A stretch of DNA of 64,000 bases from Ligula intestinalis (taxonomy: Eukaryota > Platyhelminthes > Cestoda > Diphyllobothriidea > Diphyllobothriidae): NCBI GenBank assembly GCA_036362985.1, contig JAYGXS010000009.1, forward strand, positions 8,505,135-8,569,134, given 5' to 3'. The notes under the pieces are model-generated. The model made no database searches, had not been told where the DNA came from, and saw nothing but the letters and a program-made list of their open reading frames with translations. The position numbers and the translations under genes were made by a program. Position 1 is the first letter of the stretch. Each line of letters starts with the position of its first letter. Below, one piece after another: positions 20,313-64,000 of the stretch.

Positions 20313-20558
20313 TGTGAACAACTTTTCTGGCTCTAGACCGTTTTCATTCTTTTCTGTGAAAATTCACTCGACATTCTGTCATGATATCATATGTGCTCCC
20401 CCCGACCGCACATTAACTGTTGTTTGCTTTACATTAATAGGGTCCTCAAGGGCATTGCTTGCCCGTAACCCTTTGTTTTATTTCAGTCATCCTGCCTCAC
20501 AATAAAAAAATCGATAATTGGGTGTGCCTATAATCCTTCGGGTAAATCAGGTAATGTA

Positions 20559-20879
20559 ATGCAGCTGTGTGAAATGTTTGAAAAAATTGCAGAGACTCAA
20601 TTCGATGTCAGAATAATTGTAGGTGATTTAAATCTGCCAGACATTGACTCGCATGCAAATACCTGTCCACCAAGATTTCAGAAATTGGTTGACACCATTT
20701 GCTTTTCAAACATGTCACAACTGGTCAGTTCAGTGACCAAAAATGACAACATATTAGATTTAATTTTTACAAATGATGGCCACCCTCTTTTTATGAATTT
20801 TCATCGTGATATTTTCACAAGTGACCACACCTTAATTCACTGTTGTTTTCCAGTCTCTCTTTCTAAAAGCCCGAGGTAA
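20559..20879 (+). pseudogene. APE-type endonuclease fragment, family E
   Basis: Visible motifs are VRIIVGDLNLPDIDSHA (the GDxN block), DNILDLIFTND and FTSDHTLIH (the SDH block). The tryptophan of the D-x-D-W pattern seen in the 62126 copy is a serine here (DIDSHA). The N-terminal catalytic E-T-W block is missing because of truncation. Confidence 0.8.
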
Positions 20880-21097
20880 AATGCAATAACCTTGACTTTT
20901 TTAACGTGAACCATGAATTAATAAATGATTTCGTAAGTACCCTAGATTGGCATAGCATATTTTCAACTGACGATCCCTACTTCTTCCAGGAGCTATTGCA
21001 AAACCTTACAGAAAATATTCAGGCTCTTATCGAACTTTAGATTTTTAAATTCAGCTTTTCTACTGTGCCACATTTCCTCCAAAATAGACTTTAGCAA

Positions 21098-21475
21098 TTG
21101 CGAAAACAACTTCGAGATACGTCTAATAGCTCTTTATCAGTTTACTTTAGAATAGCGCAAATATTTGAATTAGCGCTTAAAATAAGGCTTGCACGAGATA
21201 GGCGTAGAGAGGCCACAGAAAGTGATGCAAATTTTTCCAGATCTGTTGCTCAAGTCTTCCGTCTTCAGTCGTTGGCTAAGCTTCAGAAAGTCATTCCACC
21301 CTTACTCAATAGCACCAATCATTTTGTTACAGAGGATTTGTCGAAAGAAGCATTGCTAAATTCCTTTTTTGCCAAGTTCTTTACCATCGAAACTAGCCCC
21401 ATGCCTGTAATCCCTCTGATGTGTGATTCAAATCTCAGTACTCGTAATTTCTCACCCGCTTGTATTAAAAAATAA
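21098..21475 (+). pseudogene. EN-RT linker of LINE family E
   Basis: A 125-codon frame containing RIAQIFELALKIRLARDRRR, then EATESDANFSRSVAQVF. This is important as the uninterrupted reference for the site where family F joins family E at 63157: here EAT is followed by ESDANF, whereas there it is followed by foreign sequence. The frame ends at a stop before the RT. Confidence 0.8.
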
Positions 21476-21939
21476 GTCGTCTTAAAAATTCCCATTCGGT
21501 TGGAACTGATGGCATTCCAAACTCACTTATTAAACCATTAAAAGATTACCCACCTTTACTGAGTAAATTATTTTCAGTACTTCTTGAGAAATGCTATTTC
21601 CCGGACCACCAGAAAACTTTGATTATAATTCCCGTTTTCAAAGCTGGTTCCCGCTCGCATATTCACAATTAACGCGGTGCTCGTAAAACGCCCTCTCTGG
21701 CTAAACTCTTTAAAAGAGTAATTGCCAAAAAATTGCAGAATTTTGCATAAACAATAAAATTCTCAGATCTTCACAGCATGGCTTTTACCGGACCGATCTT
21801 GTGAAACATGCCACATGTCTTTTCTAAACCTACTTACTTCTCTTCGTAAAGATCATTTACCTGTGGTAGTTATCTATTTTGATCTTAGTACATAGTCCCC
21901 TGCCCCCCTTTAGCGCTTTTTTCCTCTGTTTTTCTTCCC

Positions 21940-25211: not shown

Positions 25212-25976
25212 TTAATTGCCTTCTTGTGCGTGGACTGCTTGTTGGACGGCACACGGGCTCTGACCTGTTGAACTTTCGTCACGGGCGGTGAGCTCGGGCA
25301 TGATGATTGCTCGGCCGTCTGGCTCCCCGGTGTTGGCGTACGATGAGGCGGTGGCCTGCCCATTCCTCAAGTGACGGCTTGCTTTGGCCACATTGAATCT
25401 CAGGATTGAATATGGATTGGGCAAATCGTTGCACTTGTTGATGGATTGGGGGCCCGTGAACCATGACTCAAGTAGTTCTCGGCTTACCCGATTGTCACCT
25501 CTTGCGAGAATTTCGGCCTCATCAAATTTGAAGGTGTGGCCGGGTCTCATCGAATGAGCCGCAACTTGAGAATTGGCATCATTTCGCCGTACTGCAGCCG
25601 CGTGTTTGGCAATTCGCGTCTTGAGAAGTCTGCCAGTTTCTCCGACATAGTTGCTTTGACCGCAACTGCACCAGATCCTGTAGACGACCCCAGATGTTTC
25701 TTGTCGTGGCAGTGGGTCTTTCGGCTTCATTATCTGACGCCTTATGGTTGCCTCCGGCCTGTGTGCGACTCCAACTCCAAGTGGTGCGAGAAGGCGGCCG
25801 ACTGCTTCCGATACGTTTTTGACATACGGGATCAATTGCCAAATCTTGGGGTCGGTGCGCTTTTGTTGGCCAGTTCGTTTGCGCAAGCACCGGTTGACAA
25901 AGTTGCGCGGGTAGCCATTTTCTCTGAACACCTGTCGGAGGTATTCTATCTCGCGATCGAGTCTTCTTCTTCGCAA
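25212..25976 (-). pseudogene. Penelope RT tail plus GIY-YIG endonuclease
   Basis: A 254-codon open frame. Residues 7-30 (DREIEYLRQVFRENGYPRNF) are the Penelope post-RT helical region. Residues about 95-125 read SGVVYRIWCSCGQSNYVGET, then GRLLKTRIAKH, the GIY-YIG core with its CxC pair and the arginine after YVGETG. Further on are a histidine (MRPGHTF), the glutamate-bearing DEAEIL and a C-terminal LESWF region, as expected of Penelope endonucleases. The domain looks intact, but no start codon or RT core precedes it, so it is a truncated copy whose first methionine is arbitrary. Confidence 0.85.
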
Positions 25977-26164
25977 GATCTGGGTCGTCTATACCTGAAG
26001 ATGGATAGGGCTTGCTGACTGACGACAGTTAAGATGCTCAAAATTGCTATTCCAGCCTTCCTTATTTTTGTCGGTACCCGCGACATAGCGCATTCTGTCT
26101 TCTGAGCCACGAGGCCTAGACACCCTGTACTGCCTACCACCTCCGGCACCACGCCATAGATGAG

Positions 26165-51340: not shown

Positions 51341-51656
51341 ACCTTGAACGCGGTTTGTTCAAATTCGAAGATAAGTGAAGCTTTATATAAATTGATTTAT
51401 ATAAGAGAAGAAACGACTCAAAGTCTTTGGTTTTCTTAAATAAAATATCAGTAAGTAACAGTTGACTATCTTAGCCAAAATCTGCTACCAAACTCCTTCG
51501 TTGCTTTGGTCAGATATTGTCCTCTGTTTCATAGAACGCTGTACAAATCATTTGTTTTGTACTTCTAGTATTTTATAGTTTATTTGTCAAAAACACATTA
51601 CTTCGACATATATTTAGCATTCAAAAATCCTTTGCAGGAAAATTTTATTAGAAACA
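51341..51656 (+). promoter_or_regulatory. 5' untranslated region of LINE family C copy 2 (presumed)
   Basis: About 300 bp of A+T-rich sequence between the end of the truncated C copy 1 and the ORF1 start codon. It has no frame and would be expected to hold an internal promoter, but I recognise no promoter element in it. Confidence 0.35.
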
Positions 51657-52955
51657 ATGACCGACGCGAAAGTTGTTGTGGATCAAATCGATCTGTCAGC
51701 CCTCTTAAATTTAACAAACTTTATTGAAAAGTATGAACCTGTATTTAAGATTCTTAATTCACTTCTGGACTCCAATTCATTTGAAAGCAACCTCACGAAT
51801 TTACCTCAGATTGAGTCTGTAGTGCATTTAGTATCAACAGAAGTTTCACATAGATCAAAACGTAGCTGTAATATAATCTTTCGCAACTTTCCTCAAATGA
51901 GTAATCCAATGGTAGCAATACAAAGCGTTTTTCAACAATGTGGGATAAGTATAGGCATAGTGTCTATCAAAAGACTAAATTCGCGAAGTAAAAACAAACC
52001 GATTTTGCTTACATGTTCTTCCCACGCCGAAGCTCAAATGCTACTACAAAACTCTGAAATAAATAGGAGTTTCCGGAGTTTTAAAGCATATATAGGCCCT
52101 GACTTGACCCCAATGCAGCGCAGACAAGTTTTTCACAAAGACAAAGGGCGTAAACAAAGTCAGCCGCATATAGTCGTAGAGGACGGAAACACTCCACAAA
52201 ATGCTACTTCAGAGGAACAATTAACGAGTTCCTCCTCATCTGGGAAGGAAAACGAAAACTATCAACGTAGCATCAGCTTAGATGACTTGAGAGTGACTTC
52301 TTCATATTATAATAATGACAAACCGAAAGCAAATAATAAACCTGCCGAAGCAATTAAGGGAAAGAATAAGGTCCAAACAAAAAGACCCCGAAATAGTACA
52401 ACCCCATTAGACATGACCAACACTTATCCTGAATCTAATCAAGATACATTGATAAATAACAACACACGTCTAAACATGTCCATAAATAGCAATACCAGTC
52501 CTAACTCAACGAACCAAAGTAGTAAACCAGTGTTAGATTATCTCCCCCGAACAACCCAGAATAGACCACCAGTCCCAAACAGAATTTCATATCAAAACGA
52601 ATATCCGTATTTAAATGCACACCCTAAAATGACACCTAACCCCTTCTCTCAACCCATGTATCCTAGCCCATACACAAGACGACCACCGCACACCCAACCC
52701 TTTCCATATAACACACACAATCAAATCCCACCTCGCACAACACCATACCCTCCGATAGTTACACAATGCCATCGAATTCCACCACTCTCATCACCAATTT
52801 TTCCCAATAATGCACAATTCGCCACAAATAGTCCAACACCACCATATTATCCACCAATCACACAATTTCCGCACATGAGCCCTCAACACAATCAACCAAG
52901 TAATAGGAATCCATTTTTTCACAACAGATTCCAGCTTTTGTATCCGAAACCATAA
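51657..52955 (+). CDS. LINE family C ORF1 protein, intact
   Basis: 432 residues from ATG to TAA without interruption. The N-terminal part is predicted helical (LLNLTNFIEKYEPVFKILNS). Residues 55-165 form the domain shared with the family E ORF1 (HLVSTEVSHRSKRSCNIIFR; then IKRLNSRSKNKPILLTCSS), probably the RNA-binding core of RRM-like type. The second half is low-complexity, rich in Asn/Ser and then Pro/Tyr/His (residues about 290-425). No zinc knuckle. The role by analogy is coating element RNA. The stop overlaps where ORF2 begins. Confidence 0.85.
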   Translation: MTDAKVVVDQIDLSALLNLTNFIEKYEPVFKILNSLLDSNSFESNLTNLPQIESVVHLVSTEVSHRSKRSCNIIFRNFPQMSNPMVAIQSVFQQCGISIGIVSIKRLNSRSKNKPILLTCSSHAEAQMLLQNSEINRSFRSFKAYIGPDLTPMQRRQVFHKDKGRKQSQPHIVVEDGNTPQNATSEEQLTSSSSSGKENENYQRSISLDDLRVTSSYYNNDKPKANNKPAEAIKGKNKVQTKRPRNSTTPLDMTNTYPESNQDTLINNNTRLNMSINSNTSPNSTNQSSKPVLDYLPRTTQNRPPVPNRISYQNEYPYLNAHPKMTPNPFSQPMYPSPYTRRPPHTQPFPYNTHNQIPPRTTPYPPIVTQCHRIPPLSSPIFPNNAQFATNSPTPPYYPPITQFPHMSPQHNQPSNRNPFFHNRFQLLYPKP

Positions 52956-53687
52956 GTGTTGCGCTTATTAATGCTAGATCGATAGTAAACAAAGTTCCAC
53001 GACTTAGGACTTTTATTGACACACACAATCCCGATATAGTCTTTTTAACAGAAACATGGGTAAACGAATCAACCTCCAATGCTTCACTTTTTATAGCAAA
53101 CTACACCTTCTATAGACAGGACCGTGCGAATAAACGAGGAGGAGGTTGTATGATCTACATTAGATCTACCATAGAACAGAGTGGCTTTGAGGTTCTTCAG
53201 GAGACGTTCAATGGCGAAGCATGCTTCGCTATAATAACATCCAAGACCCTTAAAAGCATTCTAATTGGATGTTTGTACACCCCTCCGGAATATAGTAATG
53301 ATGACACTGGTTTACAAATCTACTAGATATTCTATCGAATATCCAAACCGAATATAAGATAATTGCAGGAGAGTTAAACCGTCCAGAAATAAACTGGACA
53401 GAACTATCAGCCCCATCCAGACATGATGAATTATTATCATCAATTGTGTTTCATAACTGGACGAAAATAATAAGCAAACCAACCAGGGGAAACAATATAC
53501 TCGATGTTATTCTCACCAATGATATCTGGCCCTTATATACGCACTACGACAGCTTAACCTTTGATAGTGATCATAAGACAATAATAGCAGTGCTCCCTCT
53601 TAACATTAAAATAAGACCTGATCCTAGTTACACTTCTATAAACCCCAAAAATCTTGACATTGAATCTATGAATAACTACATGAGGTC
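52952..53687 (+). pseudogene. LINE family C ORF2, endonuclease part
   Basis: The frame reads ISVALINARSIVNKVPRLRT, FLTETWVNESTSNA and GGGCMIYIRS. It shifts at about 53315, then reads IAGELNRPEINWTELSAPSR, NILDVILTND and FDSDHKTII. The catalytic GDxN aspartate is Glu here. No ATG occurs between the last upstream stop (52904) and the domain. ATA at 52952 overlaps the ORF1 stop and may be a mutated ATG. Truncated by the assembly gap. Confidence 0.8.
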
Positions 53688-53787
53688 NNNNNNNNNNNNN
53701 NNNNNNNNNNNNNNNNNNNNNNNNNNNNNNNNNNNNNNNNNNNNNNNNNNNNNNNNNNNNNNNNNNNNNNNNNNNNNNNNNNNNNNN
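53688..53787. other. Assembly gap (100 N)
   Basis: Exactly 100 N, the conventional placeholder for a scaffold gap of unknown size. It falls between the endonuclease and RT of a LINE, a typical place for repeat-induced assembly breaks. Confidence 0.98.
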
Positions 53788-55136
53788 TTAGGCCAATAAA
53801 TACACTTCCCGCAGCATCGAAGATCTTGGAGACCTTAATCAAAGAAAAGATGATGCGTCACTTGACAGAGAACAACCTGCTCAGTACAGCTCAACATGGC
53901 TTTCTCGAGAAACGATCTTGTGACACCTGCCAGCTCTCTTTCTTTGATTATGTGCTGCAATCTAGAGACAGTGGTTTTGCCACTTATAGCGTCTATTTTG
54001 ATTTTACTAAGGCCTTTGATCGGGTCGATCATAACCTCCTCCTTCTGAAACTGGCCTCCTTCGGCATAGGTAGCAAGCCTCTGAACTTCATATCTTCCTA
54101 TTTGGATGCTCGCACACAACGAGTAAAAATTTCCAATGTTATCTCCAACCCCACGCATGTGAGGAGTGGAGTTATACAGGGTAGTGTACTGGGTCCGCTC
54201 CTATTTTGCCTTTTTGTCAACGACGTTTCAGATTGTTTTCAGTATGGCAGACCCTTCATGTACGCTGATGATTTAAAAGTCGCTTATCGATATAAACCGG
54301 CAGATCGCAACATCGTGCTCGAGCTGATAAAAAAGGATCTTCAGGCCTTCGCCCAGTGGTGTTGCACATGGCGCCTCACCCTTTCATGGCACAAATGTTC
54401 CGTTATGGTTGTTGGCGACGATCATCAACCGGAATTAAGCATTGACGGCCACGAACTAAATGTTCCAGCAGTTATCAAGGATTTGGGCATATCCTACTCT
54501 AATAGTCTCAATTTGTCAGAGCACTGTGCCCTGATAGTCTCGAAAGCACGCCGAACAACCGGATTTATCCTTAGAAATTTTAAGACTATCAATGTTAGAA
54601 CTAGCCTTTATAATATGTACGTGAGACCTAGTCTTGAATACTGCTCGCCTCTGTTCAGTCTTCTGCGCACTAGTGAACGGAAGAAAATAGAATCGGTGCA
54701 GCACTTCTTCACTAGAAGAGTTTTCACTACAGAACACCGTAACTTAACCTACCAACAAAGGTGCGAACTTATAAAGCTGGATCCCCTATGGCTTCGTCGA
54801 TTGCAGAAGGGTCTATTTTTACTGTTTAAACTTTTGAATGGTCAAACCTTTAATCCTCTTAGTACAATAAGGCAGCTTGAGCACTCTCGACGCGCCAGTC
54901 ATCGAGACGTATTTTTATTTCTTCCTATGGCACGCACAGTTAAGTACCGGCAATTCTTTTCAGTAAATGCCATATCAATCTGGAATAAGCTGCCCAAAAG
55001 TATTAAAACCCAGCAAAACTACCCTATGTTTAAGAGAGCTGTAACTAGTTTTCTACATTCAGGACAACTTTCCCGAATTTTGGGTGCTGACTCGGTGGAA
55101 TCTCTCTTTCACTCTGATGGCGTTCGTGGACTTTGA
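53788..55136 (+). CDS. LINE family C reverse transcriptase, intact from gap to stop
   Basis: Open from the gap edge (RPINTLPAASKILETLIKEK) through 436 codons after the first ATG at 53826. Motifs: QHGFLEKRSCDTCQL, SVYFDFTKAFDRVDHNLLLL (motif A), VIQGSVLGPLLFCLFVNDV (motif B), RPFMYADDLKVAY (motif C, YADD intact, about 54255), VIKDLGISYSNSLNLSEHC (motif E region), VRPSLEYCSPLF (thumb) and the ending FFSVNAISIWNKLPKSI. All catalytic aspartates are present. The 5' part is lost in the gap, so activity cannot be judged. Confidence 0.9.
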
Positions 55137-55421
55137 ACCCCGCCAGGCTTCACTGCTGAAGATAATGCGGCTGAAGCAGCAACCCGCAGTCTGCTAACCC
55201 TTCAGCCGATAGCTCGCAACTTTTGCCGACAACCATTGATGAAAGACTGAGAACACTGTGTTCTTGTGCCAACCCTCTCCGTCTGGAACTTATGTTTTTA
55301 TACGATATGAAACAGTTCTCCTGCTGATGAGTCAACTCAGCTTACAACTGTACATTTATTCCGTTTGTATCATACCTTTGAAGGCAGGTTTTTTTCACTT
55401 GAAACAAACTCCTAATCTCGC

Positions 55422-55465
55422 CCAGTATTGACGAAACAAAAAACCTGAAACAAAACCAATACTGG
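55422..55465 (+). ncRNA. Conserved 3' UTR hairpin of LINE family C
   Basis: CCAGTATTG at 55422-55430 pairs with CAATACTGG at 55457-55465 (9 bp, 26-nt loop rich in A and C). The family-related fragment at 56940-57090 has ACTATTG pairing with CAATAGT at the same relative place, including one compensatory pair change (G-C to C-G). LINE RTs often recognise a 3' hairpin, which is the inferred role. Confidence 0.5.
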
Positions 55466-55593
55466 CTGCAACATAAGGAGTTTGTTTTAGGTTTTTTCCG
55501 GTCTTCGAGGTGTTGGAAGGCGCCCAAGAGGTGCATTACCAACTCTTTACAATTGCCTGTAAACTGGCATAATAAACATATTATTATATAATA

Positions 55594-58037: not shown

Positions 58038-60440
58038 AATAAATAAATAAATAAATTGTATATTTAAGGACCAAGGGGCCCTTTCATTACAAACTTAGTG
58101 CTAGAGTGAAAATCAGAAAAAAATATTTCAGATTTACAACGAACTCTTATAGATTAGCTGGACAGTAAAAAAACCTCCTACATCGGCGGATGAGTTCACC
58201 AAGCCACCGATTTCCATAAAAAATGTAGGAGAAAAAACTGACTTAAGAGGTAGCATGGTAAAGTTAGATGGGATCCTATTGTTGAGGGTTCGGGACGCTT
58301 ATTTTCATGAGAAAAATAATATAGCGGTGAGTTAAGAAGGGGTTATCCGAAACAACAGGAGAAGGCAGTGAAATTCAAGGCAAAATCACCCAGATGTGAC
58401 CACCAGACTCCAGAGTCCACCGATAAGTTGGCGGTCAAACAATAACCTCGAAGGTCACCGTATCCTGGGAACAGCTTCAAATTCCAGGAGGACCCATTTC
58501 GAAATCTACAAATTGCGTGTTTAAAAAGGAAACAGACAGTAACGACTTTATTTTATCCAAATTTAAATGCTTACGTAACTTGCCTTTGAAAATCGATAAT
58601 GTAGCAGACAACCTAATTTCGGGTGGAAGATTGCTCCAAATAAAAGCATATTTGGAGGTAAAAATATGAGAACGGTTAGATGTGGAGCTATCGGGTGGTA
58701 AAATTATCATTGAAGAGTTGCGAGTGGCGTAATGTCGGTTTACCGGAGTGAGAGCGTTAATTTGTGGGAGATCAGGACTATTGTTAACAGGAAACAGAAA
58801 GCATATACCAGCTTCGAATCTTCCTATCAAAAGAAATTTAATGTCTGCTAACTGAGGTCTATCTGTATAAGAAATACTAGATCCAGAAAGAGAAAATATT
58901 TTGCGAGTGAAAACTCACTGAACCTTTTCAATCTTAATACGGTCATTCGTGTTCATAAGACCCAAAAGGGGACAGCAGTATTCTAGTATAGGGAGAACAA
59001 ACATGCGGTATAGTTTTAACTTTATTTCTGGAAGGAAAATATTATACGATATAAACCCACATATCTGTGCGGCCTTGGCAGAAATTCGATCTGCATGAGG
59101 CGATAATGCAAGCTTATTTGTGTAAGTTAGACCTAAATCCTTTAACGTAGATCGATCTATCAGTGGACTGTTGGGGAAGATAATGGGTCCAGGAAGCTTT
59201 GCGGGACCAAAACACACGAAAATACATTTGGAAGGAGAAAACTCCATCTGCCAAGTGGCACTCCAACTTGAGAGGGTACGCAAGTCTGCGTTAACTTGAT
59301 CAACGAAACTACTGACTGTGTCCTTAGAAAATGAGTAAATACACTTAAAGTCATCAGCATGAATGAAATTTTTTGGGTTATTTAGCACTGTTTAAATTTT
59401 ATTAATGTAAAGAATGAAAAGAGGGGACCTGAAACCGTGCCTTGAAAAACGCCACCCGGGATCGGCTGAGGCATCTAGTAGCTATTTTGCCTACTAAGAC
59501 CTTCTGGCTGCGGTTAGACAGGTAGGAAGCAATGAAATCAAGGAGAGGATGCCTGATACCAAGGGCTTCTAGTTTCACTAGAAGGCGCCTGTGCGGCATC
59601 TTGTCGAAAGCTTCACTAAGGTCAAAGTAAATCGCAATGACTGATTGCTGCTCAGTACGAAGTGACGTAACGAGGTTAAAAAATGCAAATTGACAGGTTT
59701 CGCATGACCTTCCAGGTAGAAATCCATGCTGTGGGCACTTAGTAGTTTATTTTCTACCCAAAAATCGAGAATTTGATTAACAATGATCTTTTCCAGAAGT
59801 TTGGCTAGGGCCGGGGTTTTATGAACACCTCGGTATTTATTTATGTCCGAATGAAATCCTGACTTTAAGACGGGAAGAATAATAGATGTCTTCCATGAGT
59901 CAGGAAAATAACCGTTAGGAAGGTAAGCTGAGAATGGATGACTTAGCGATCGGGGGAAGCTCAACACTCTCTTGATAAGCGAGTTTTGAGTACCGTCAGT
60001 TCCCGAGAAGTGCGAGTTTTTCAGACGGATAATGTGCTTAAGAATTACTTCTATGGAGAAATCAATGGTACTGATAGTATGGACTAAGAATGGCTGAAAT
60101 GACGGGACCAGTTCGAATTCCGTCGTAAGATCGTTTGCAAAGAATGCATTAAACAAATCAGGCTTGTCAGACTCATCTAGCCCAAATTTTTTATTTTCAT
60201 TCAGTAAAAGGGGGTTTTCGTGTCCTCGTTTAGCGGAGGACCGACGACGGAAAGCTGGGTAATAGATTTTGCAGAGTTTAATTCACGGAGTGCGCAAGAT
60301 TCCCTTTGTTTATCACGTGCAAGCCATATCTTAGAAGCTAATTCGAAAATCTCTGCGATTCTTAGGTGCACAGTTAGTGAACTAGTAAAATGATCGTTCA
60401 ACTGTCGTTGCAATTTCTTTAGTCTAGGCAATAGAAAGGG
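58038..60440 (-). mobile_element. LINE family E, truncated copy 2
   Basis: The minus-strand copy contains the EN-RT linker (60201-60431, RLKKLQRQLNDHFTSSLTVH), the RT (58915-60156) and a C-terminal region (58477-58830, ending FTSKYAFIWSNLPPEIR). The 3' end at 58038-58057 is a run of TAAA-type units. It is 5'-truncated in the linker, so no endonuclease. Several frameshifts. Confidence 0.85.
58477..60156 (-). pseudogene. LINE E reverse transcriptase
   Basis: Order: KNSHFSGTDGTQNSLIKRVL, DSWKTSIILPVLKSGFHSDI, KTPALAKLLEKIIVNQILDF, motif A region (RFTLTLVKLSTRCR, frame-shifted from FDLSEAFD), LLDFIASYLSNRSQKVLVG and motif C as NFIHADDFKCIY. The tyrosine of YADD is histidine, and both aspartates remain. 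The thumb reads LPILEYCCPLLGLMN. Shifts at about 59590 and 59395. Confidence 0.8.
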
Positions 60441-60459
60441 AGGAATGGTGGGGTGGATA

Positions 60460-63156
60460 CTGCAAAATCAAGGTCAAGGCGCGCAACTTATCTTTCAAAA
60501 TTGAGTGAAATAGATATTTTTATGAGATTTCATCGTTGCTTGCTGAAGTTACTAGCTTTATTGTTGTTATTTATATGTATATCTTACACTTTTGCAACTG
60601 CACATACCGGTAGTTGTCTTTTTACCGATAGGTCAAAATATACATTTTCATACTGTTTCACCGACATAGCCTCATTCTAGTTCCAATAGATTCACGTAAA
60701 AAGCAAGTAATCTATTGTGTAAATCCTGAATAATATCTAAAAATTTGGTTCTATATCAATTTCCAGCAAGAAATAGTTTGTATTACTCGATATATTATTA
60801 GAGATAATTTTCACCCTGCGTAGCCTCTTCGGTAATTCAAATTTTCTGTCGCAATTTTGTGCATAACTTTACTTAGAACATATCCTATCACTCACCTTTT
60901 ATTCAATATGATACCCAAGCCACAACTGAGACGTAAATTAACCCGGAATACCAATTCTCCTAACGATAAACCCATATTAAGCATGAAGAAACTTGATCTT
61001 GATGCTTTAGACAACTTTAGTAAGCTTTATAACCAATATGCTTGTCTGTTTACGGTCCTTGGTGCCATCTTTGATGGAAAGGTATCTACCCTCACTTCCC
61101 AGAAATGTGAGAAACTAGAACCTTTCGTCAATATGGTGTCTACTGAGACCCGTGATCGGCAAAAAAGGAATTTTAATTTTCTTTTGAAAAATGCATCAAA
61201 AGATAAACAACCTATAGATGTTGCTGTTCAGTTTCTTTACTCTTGTGGCTTTAATTTTAAAGTTGCAGAAGCTAAAAGAATCATCCCGAAGTAAAAACCC
61301 GCCGATTCTCGTAAACCTTTTTGCGGCGAGAGAAGTAGACCCTATATTCTCTCAGCATGAGCGGTCAGCCAACTATTTAAAGGAAAATAAACTTTACATA
61401 TGCAGGGATAAAACGCCAATAGAGCGTCGCGTTTCACCCAAAGTAGCAACTGAGAACACTGGCTCCGGTGCAACAAAACCAAAAGTTGTCTCTGAGGCCG
61501 GCCCTCCCGCTCAGGTAAGCCCACATCCCTCTGGATCAATGTCAGTTTCCCCTGATACTTCTCCCATTCACCTTACTCGTGATTCGAGTGAGATTTTAGC
61601 CTCGTCAAGTCGTTCTCCTTCTAAGCCAACCACGTCTGTGATAGCCTTAAATTCCGATAAACCTACGAACGCCCCTAGTAAATCTACGTCAGTTTTCAAA
61701 TTCGGCAATAGGATTACCGATAATAACTCAGTATCTAACAAAGACCCAACCGCTCAAGCTAGCGCTTTTCCTATCCCCAAACCTCATCAACATCCCCCAA
61801 TAATTCAGCCAGCTTATAAAATTAACCGTTTTTCAAAACCAGTCATGCAATTTTTGAAGGCAAATTTTCCGTCAAATTTTGATATAATGCCTCAAAATCC
61901 TATATTTATGCCCCCTCCTGGTTTTTTATGCCACACTAGCCGCTCTTTCTATGGAGCCTCCTCTAATATGCCTTTCTACAATATGCACCGTTCATTTGAT
62001 AATAATTACTTGACAAACTGTAGACCAGGGCCAGTTTGCTTTCCGCCTTTTGCTTCTCCCATGCCGTTTCCCTTTCCGCCACCAAGTTTTCCTTTTTTAT
62101 AAATGCTGATGAGCGTTAACTGAATATGAAGGATACGCTCAGTATAATCTTACTCAATGCGAGATCAGTTGTTAATAAGATGACAGAACTTAAAACAATA
62201 GCATTTGAGCTTGATCCAGATGTGCTCTGTGTCACTGAATCTTGGACACACTCTCTTATTTCTGACTCGACACTCGCCATAGATTATTATAGTTTGTACA
62301 GACAAGACCGCATTGAAAAGCGTGGCGGTGGTTGCCTTCTTTATATTAAATCATCCTTTGTACATTACCCGTATCACCTGAGCGTTTCGTCATTTTTTGG
62401 AAATTTTTGTCTTATTTCAGTCATCCTGCCACACAATAAAAAAGCGATAATTGGGTGTGTCTTCAATCCTCCCTGTAACTCAAGTAATGTAATGCAGCTG
62501 TGTGAAATGTTTGAAAAAATTGCAGAGACTCAATTCGATGTCAGAATAATTGTAGGTGATTTAAATCTGCCAGACATTGACTGGCATGCAAATACCTGTC
62601 CACCAAGATTTCAGAAATTGGTTGACACCATTTGCTTTTCAAACATGTCACAACTGGTCAGTTCAGTGACCAGAAATGGCAACATATTAGATTTAATTTT
62701 TACAAATGATGTCCATACTCTATTTGTGAATTTTCATCGTGATATTTTCACAAGTGACCATGCCTTAATTCACTGTTGTTTTCCAGTCTCTCTTTCTAAA
62801 AAGCCCGATGTAAAATGCAATAACCTCGACTTTGGTAACGTGAATCATGCATTAGTAAATGATTTCGTAAGTACCCTAGATTGGCATAGCATATTTTCAA
62901 CTAACGATCCCTACTTCTTCCATGAACTATTGCAAAACCTTGCAGAAAATATTCAGGCTCTTACCCCACTTAAGATTTTTAAGTCAAATTCAGCTTCGTC
63001 TACTGTGCCACATTTTCTCCAAAATAGACTTAAGAAATTACAAAAACAACTTAAGGATACGTCCAATAGCTCTTTATCAGTTCACTTAAGAATAGTGCAA
63101 GTATTTGAATTAGCGCTTAAAATAAGGCTTGCACGAGATAGGCGTAGAGAGGCCAC
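60460..63156 (+). mobile_element. LINE family E, copy 3 (5' part through EN-RT linker)
   Basis: It includes a presumed 5' region (60460-60907), ORF1 (60908-62102, one frameshift) and ORF2 from 62126 through the endonuclease and linker to EAT at 63156. At that point the sequence departs from the other family E copies (compare 21215-21240) and becomes family F. The family E RT must lie beyond the window or be lost. Confidence 0.85.
60908..62102 (+). pseudogene. LINE E ORF1, single frameshift
   Basis: It starts MIPKPQLRRKLTRNTNSPND. Residues about 75-130 (VNMVSTETRDRQKRNFNFLL; then CGFNFKVAEAKRI) align with the family C ORF1 core. Near 61280 the frame shifts, and the continuation reads SRSKNPPILVNLFAAREVD, again matching family C (SRSKNKPILLTC). 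The C-terminal half is Ser/Thr-rich, then Pro/Phe-rich, ending PFPFPPPSFPFL. One indel is all that separates it from an open ORF1. Confidence 0.8.
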
Positions 63157-64000
63157 AGCACAGGCGAAACTCTTGCTAGAGCGCAAACCATCCTTACGGA
63201 GTCTGCATTTGCAAGTTTTTTTTTCAGCCGGATCACGAGTTGAAAGAGCGGAGAAAGATGAGACAGCTAATAATAGAGCTGGAAAAACGGAGATCCAATG
63301 GCGAGACAAATCTCAAAATAAGAGAGGGAAAAATAGTTCAGGTCAAAAGGACATCGCTCTGGTCAAAGCCGGTAACAGTGACGGCCTAGCTGTCTCGCCA
63401 CCGAAACCTCAGACATGCCCTCTTAAATTGGTCGTTTTAAATGCCAGATCACTGATTAATAAAACGCCTCTGCTCCAGACTATGGTTTTCGTCAACCGCC
63501 CAGACATTGTTATGGTAACTGAGACATGGGCATCGGCCTCTGTAGCTGACTCAGAACTCTCTGTTCTAGGCTATTCAGGCGTTCGGAACGATCGAAACAA
63601 TGGCCGTGGCGGAGGAAGCTGCATCTATATTAAGCAGCCACTTGCATTTCTCCCGTTGGACTATCCACAATTCACAGCGGTGGAGGAGAGCTGCTGGCTA
63701 CGAGTTGTTCTAAAAAACAAATGCTCCTTACTTGTTGGCTGTGTTTATCGCCCACCTAATGCCAATGCAGACTACGATCTTTGTCTCTCGCAGGCATTTC
63801 ATGCCGTAGCTGACTTGAATCTTAAGTATTGCTTGATTGCAAGCGATTTTAACCTTCCTGACGTGCAATGGTTTCCACCATCCGGTCCTTCAAAGTTTGA
63901 GAACTTACTTGAGGCAATAGATATCGGCATGTGGGATCAGGTAGTCGATTTTACCACTCGAGGAGCAAACATACTCGACCTAATTTTTTGTAGGGGATGC
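62126..64000 (+). CDS. Fused ORF2 frame with two APE-type endonuclease domains (partial)
   Basis: One uninterrupted frame of 625 codons from ATG to the window edge. Residues 1-230 are a family E endonuclease: IILLNARSVVNKMTELKT, CVTESWTHSLISDS, IIVGDLNLPDIDWHA and FTSDHALIH. Residues 230-343 are the E linker, ending ARDRRREAT. From residue 344 the frame continues in family F: an RRM-like ORF1 piece (AQAKLLLERKPSLRSLHLQV), a basic stretch, then a second endonuclease (VVLNARSLINKTPLLQ, MVTETWASASVADSE, CLIASDFNLPDVQW, NILDLIF). GDFN is SDFN in the second domain. The frame has no stop within the window. Whether it is expressed is unknown. Confidence 0.85.
   Translation, partial: MKDTLSIILLNARSVVNKMTELKTIAFELDPDVLCVTESWTHSLISDSTLAIDYYSLYRQDRIEKRGGGCLLYIKSSFVHYPYHLSVSSFFGNFCLISVILPHNKKAIIGCVFNPPCNSSNVMQLCEMFEKIAETQFDVRIIVGDLNLPDIDWHANTCPPRFQKLVDTICFSNMSQLVSSVTRNGNILDLIFTNDVHTLFVNFHRDIFTSDHALIHCCFPVSLSKKPDVKCNNLDFGNVNHALVNDFVSTLDWHSIFSTNDPYFFHELLQNLAENIQALTPLKIFKSNSASSTVPHFLQNRLKKLQKQLKDTSNSSLSVHLRIVQVFELALKIRLARDRRREATAQAKLLLERKPSLRSLHLQVFFSAGSRVERAEKDETANNRAGKTEIQWRDKSQNKRGKNSSGQKDIALVKAGNSDGLAVSPPKPQTCPLKLVVLNARSLINKTPLLQTMVFVNRPDIVMVTETWASASVADSELSVLGYSGVRNDRNNGRGGGSCIYIKQPLAFLPLDYPQFTAVEESCWLRVVLKNKCSLLVGCVYRPPNANADYDLCLSQAFHAVADLNLKYCLIASDFNLPDVQWFPPSGPSKFENLLEAIDIGMWDQVVDFTTRGANILDLIFCRGC
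63157..64000 (+). mobile_element. LINE family F, 5' portion, inserted in family E
   Basis: It starts abruptly inside an ORF1 C-terminal region (KLLLERKPSLRSLHLQVFF, akin to LLLSRKRMLRNSHPAVFF of family A). It passes through a lysine/arginine-rich spacer and enters an APE-type endonuclease that is cut by the window edge. Because the start is within ORF1, the copy is 5'-truncated. It has the same orientation as the E element it joins. Confidence 0.75.

Follow-up and report, generated by a model that had tools for sequence, protein, structure and literature searches.

Two LINE endonucleases share one open frame in Ligula intestinalis, probably through a nested insertion

The window, by which we mean the whole 64,000-nucleotide stretch of Ligula intestinalis DNA analysed here, ends within an open reading frame in which the endonuclease of one LINE family (E) is followed in phase by part of the endonuclease of another (F). 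We propose, with a probability of roughly 0.86, that the arrangement is an ordinary nested insertion, with a 5'-truncated F LINE lying within an E LINE. The double-endonuclease frame is probably accidental, and this one-off fusion most likely represents commonplace genomic debris, not some novel enzyme type.

Results

Organization of the fused frame

From its ATG at 62126 to 64000 the frame spans 1875 bases with zero stops, confirming the 625 codons that a first-pass annotation had assigned to it; in the ORF listing the stop-free stretch, measured stop to stop, runs from 62120 to 64000 and is not yet closed at the window end. It reads through a complete E endonuclease and linker, the tail of an F ORF1 and a partial F endonuclease (Table 1), and the single open frame supports the in-phase joining of the two parts. 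Two Pfam endonuclease models each match two stretches of the frame, both of the Exo_endo_phos type. The first stretch contains NARS, TESW, RGGG, GDLN, LDLIF and SDH, in keeping with the complete family E endonuclease that had been annotated. The second contains NARS, TETW, RGGG, YRPP, SDFN and LDLIF; its SDH lies past the window end, so that the second endonuclease, although recognized by Pfam and by its motifs from NARS to LDLIF, is visible only in part. We take these motifs of the two endonucleases (NARS, TESW or TETW, RGGG, GDLN, YRPP, SDFN, LDLIF and SDH) to be catalytic. AlphaFold models have a mean pLDDT of 90.6 for the E endonuclease and 79.5 for the F part, whose initial 63 residues fall below 50.

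The piece preceding the F endonuclease had been read as truncated ORF1, and the fetched F copies uphold this, as the endonuclease frame runs back through ORF1 in them. ORF1, endonuclease and reverse transcriptase (RT) occupy one frame in the F copies L010-L012, and likewise in L014 from within ORF1; a non-ORF1 identity for the piece was rejected on this common phase. Used as a homologue query, the piece drew 84 candidates, none with an E value <= 1, and the PDB sequence and Rfam searches each gave zero matches. The F frame holds one to four stops per copy, one of them at an identical place in L010 and L011. At L012:3844-6123 the ORF1, endonuclease and RT of family F appear to share a single frame, which would make F a candidate single-ORF LINE; 760 aa of this frame are stop-free in L012, and the stops in the copies seen are scattered.

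Table 1. Features of the fused frame and of related E and F copies in the window
Feature	Position	Strand	Basis
5' part of a family E LINE (5' end apparently present), broken off at 63157-63160	60464..63160	+	Alignment with L016 and L017
E ORF1, divided between two frames (60908-61294, 61218-62102)	60908..62102	+	Frames; comparison with L016
E ORF2 start: complete endonuclease (motifs through SDH at 62753) and linker	62126..63157	+	ORF, Pfam, motifs, pLDDT 90.6
E/F join, 4-nt overlap AGCA common to both parents	63157..63160	+	Four E and five F copies compared
F ORF1 tail (F 5'-truncated), in phase with F endonuclease	63158..63424	+	F copies L010-L012, L014
F endonuclease, ended by the window before SDH	63425..64000	+	Pfam, motifs, identity to F copies
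Second E copy, 5'-truncated and decayed, extending past the position of the join to include E linker and RT	20472..21890	+	Sequence matches
Second F piece, from RT to the 3' end	53788..55587	+	97.6% identity to F copy L012; RVT_1 match

The parent families

The E sequence from 60468 to 63160 is 94.4% identical to L016 and 93.2% identical to L017. Because these matches reach 60468, and the mutual resemblance of L016 and L017 starts 4 bases further upstream, the E copy probably has its 5' end. Its divided ORF1 corresponds to a single frame of 422 aa in L016. The E half of the fused frame is 92% identical to the copy at 20472-21218, which in turn shares about 90% identity with two further E copies. 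The F copies match the F part of the frame at 97.0-98.6% over 844 bases in four of five cases, the fifth being aligned over 504 bases.

That both families are LINEs with endonuclease and RT is seen in the Pfam matches of the endonucleases and, for F, in an RVT_1 match within 53788-55587; the RT of family E is a putative assignment from sequence resemblance. In a tree of 61 endonucleases, built on the endonuclease domain alone, E pairs with P0001 of Sparganum proliferum (support 99/95), and the element at 52940 in the window joins this pair next (96/90). The partner of F is P0004 of Trichobilharzia regenti, with a support of 90/85 that is under the strict mark; a larger group (100/99) takes in E, F and the relatives of both. 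Judged by these domain sequences, E and F are separate families. We rejected duplication of one endonuclease within a single element because E and F have different single-endonuclease partners in the tree.

The join and its copies

Around the join the four E copies L015-L018 read CACAGCATTAAG, the five F copies L010-L014 read CTGAAGCACAGG, and the fused copy reads CACAGCACAGG. As all three carry AGCA, these four bases may derive from either parent. The E copies run on downstream of the join, and the sequence upstream of it continues in all five F copies compared, so that F lacks its 5' end here. The assembly search (644 Mb, 2377 contigs) agrees, in that E matches stop at 63160 or close to it and those to F start at 63157, among the 40 scored of 2502 candidates. 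The join had earlier been placed at codon level by the E copy at 21215; that copy, which begins at 20472, is a few bases shorter at the join, and better copies give the AGCA overlap.

There is no sign that the fusion has spread in the genome. A match spanning from E into F was found only at the window's own place in the search just described, and a 100-base query across the join matched end to end at the window alone (40 scored of 2070 candidates). The 29-nt junction pattern, searched through the assembly at <=3 mismatches and thus blind to copies within N or diverged by more than 3 mismatches, gave one match, the window itself with 0 mismatches; its backward control gave 0. Repeated identical junctions, for which the first-pass annotation had suggested a search, were therefore not seen with either query. 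In collections of genome contigs and viral contigs the pattern matched 0 and 0 times, although neither is expected to hold such hosts and either may omit records close to the window's genome. Tandem endonuclease domains occurred in 0 of 123 homologues, among which a protein with both endonucleases and an RT would be missed because candidate length was restricted to about 343-1092 aa.

Relative age of the two parts

The first-pass annotation had left an insertion and an E/F chimera side by side, and private substitutions bear on the choice. The copies compared were picked as strong matches near the join from the scored candidates above; limits on length and on identity (88%) left 16 of 21 E upstream copies, 24 of 26 copies of E ORF2 and 25 of 26 copies of F. 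The E loci L002, L003, L004, L005 and L008 had already been set aside because each duplicated the place of another locus. In E, 54 of the 2676 columns hold a private substitution, against 6 of 840 in F (Fisher p = 0.009), which gives loads of 2.0% and 0.7%. E ORF2 taken separately has 16/1028 (24 copies), which against F (25 copies) gives p = 0.13; the 5' half of E adds 38/1648 (16 copies). When each set holds 14 copies, the two parts of E show rates of 2.4% and 1.9%, compared with 0.85% in F. In an earlier count with six F copies, the E load (16/1028) showed no clear difference from that of F (11/839).

By this measure the host E appears older than the insert F. The higher private load of E therefore favours a later insertion of F over a single chimeric event, although the greater diversity of family E means that part of its private differences could be older than the insertion. 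The chimera would have arisen by template switching, with reverse transcription starting on F RNA, jumping at AGCA and proceeding along E RNA to its 5' end before one insertion. The apparently complete 5' end of E fits such a course, as does the short overlap, which would also suit a jump, and the count with six F copies is compatible with it. Chimeras of this kind are described from Magnaporthe grisea LINEs, where, in the account of PMC2104539, copies of two transcripts meet at a precise point and include the 3' part of a LINE, as they would here. One event predicts equal private loads, however, and the unequal loads found here speak against it, subject to the same diversity of E. We regard a template-switch chimera as unlikely.

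Sequence beyond the window

Past 64000 the sequence is given as N over 4586 bases. The 3414 bases that follow match repeats in the flanks of fetched loci and gave zero matches to the E or F parts of the nine loci compared; the resumption of E, which a chimera would not require, is thus unseen.

The join lies 844 bases ahead of this long N run and within two high-copy repeats, a setting in which E and F reads from different places could have been merged by the assembler. The parents have just 4 bases in common at the join, which would be too few for an ordinary overlap error, and we consider an artefact of this kind very unlikely.

Selection on the fused frame

The fused frame carries 22 private changes, 5 synonymous and 17 non-synonymous (p = 0.64 against the expectation without selection); the probability that as many random changes introduce no stop is 0.47. 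Between the E sequence here and the copy at 20472, differences are spread evenly over the codon positions (20, 14 and 17), with 13 synonymous and 38 not. From these patterns the changes in the fused frame look neutral, and together with the 0.47 odds this makes the open frame explicable without selection. Of the potential double-nuclease ORF that had been suggested, the open frame is borne out, and we found nothing favouring a working protein.

We give only slight credence to a template-switch recombinant whose frame would start in the E endonuclease, cross the ORF1 tail and endonuclease of F and continue into the RT of F; such a recombinant would be a newborn two-endonuclease LINE that has not yet spread. 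A functional two-endonuclease protein, under selection or used by a new element, is scarcely credible: the frame is open, its visible endonuclease motifs are kept, both endonucleases are confidently predicted by the models save for the F ORF1 tail, and the F frame extends into RT in other copies, but the single junction match in the assembly, the neutral-looking substitutions and the lack of tandem domains among homologues in the length range covered all stand against it.

Other elements

The region 51618-55587 opens with an E-group element whose ORF1 has 445 aa and whose endonuclease, coming after it, is spread over two frames. Beyond a 100-N gap (53688-53787) lie the RT and 3' part of an F copy in the same direction, 97.6% identical to L012; a second E-group/F join may lie inside that gap. 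A minus-strand LINE with RT homology, at 58480-60446 and about 64-66% identical to E, ends near the 5' start of the E copy. The minus strand also holds an open frame of 258 aa at 25212-25988, which may represent the end of a Penelope-like element that bears a GIY-YIG endonuclease. P0003, a LINE protein with endonuclease and RT on an 8.5-kb contig filed as Streptococcus dysgalactiae, is probably contaminating animal DNA.

Discussion

We propose that a family E LINE, 5' end included, inserted at this place and that target-primed reverse transcription later put an F LINE, in the same orientation, into its ORF2. The F cDNA would have ended early, within F ORF1, and been joined to E DNA at the 4-nt overlap; with the frames aligned by a 1-in-3 accident, the E endonuclease would then read into the F ORF1 tail and endonuclease. 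We infer that E resumes past F, as we do the order of events and the joining mechanism. In target-primed reverse transcription of LINEs, early stops yield 5'-truncated copies, at whose 5' junctions microhomology is frequent, as PMC4245944 describes them. The present case resembles such a nested, 5'-truncated insertion in having a same-direction insert without its 5' end, a 4-nt overlap at the 5' junction and unequal substitution loads; it differs in the matching frames alone, and the insert is read here only to 64000.

Nested LINEs are to be expected because LINEs are dense both in the window, where LINE coding homology covers 20,702 of 64,000 bases, and in Sparganum proliferum, in whose assembly LINEs are put at 31.6% and CR1 at 10.1% (figures given in PMC8166898). 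Since the E and F halves each inherited a coding frame, chance is needed for the phase match alone, and the earlier warning that the fusion might be accidental is supported. With one insertion in two in the same direction and one in three in matching phase, a special cause is unnecessary.

The original paper on Dualen elements is reportedly that of Kojima and Fujiwara 2005. Dualen/RandI LINEs resemble the present frame in holding two endonucleases in one LINE frame, but, as characterized in PMC4640811, Dualen pairs one apurinic-like with one restriction-like endonuclease, whereas both endonucleases here are Exo_endo_phos. A Dualen-like family would also be expected to show several copies of its arrangement, whereas the assembly holds one junction match at <=3 mismatches.

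If it worked, the fusion would be a LINE caught while gaining a domain. As we read it, it indicates that extended open fusion frames arise accidentally in LINE-dense genomes and may be called as proteins by gene finders. Joins defined from copies, an assembly-wide count of the junction and a comparison of private substitutions together offer a simple test for similar claims.
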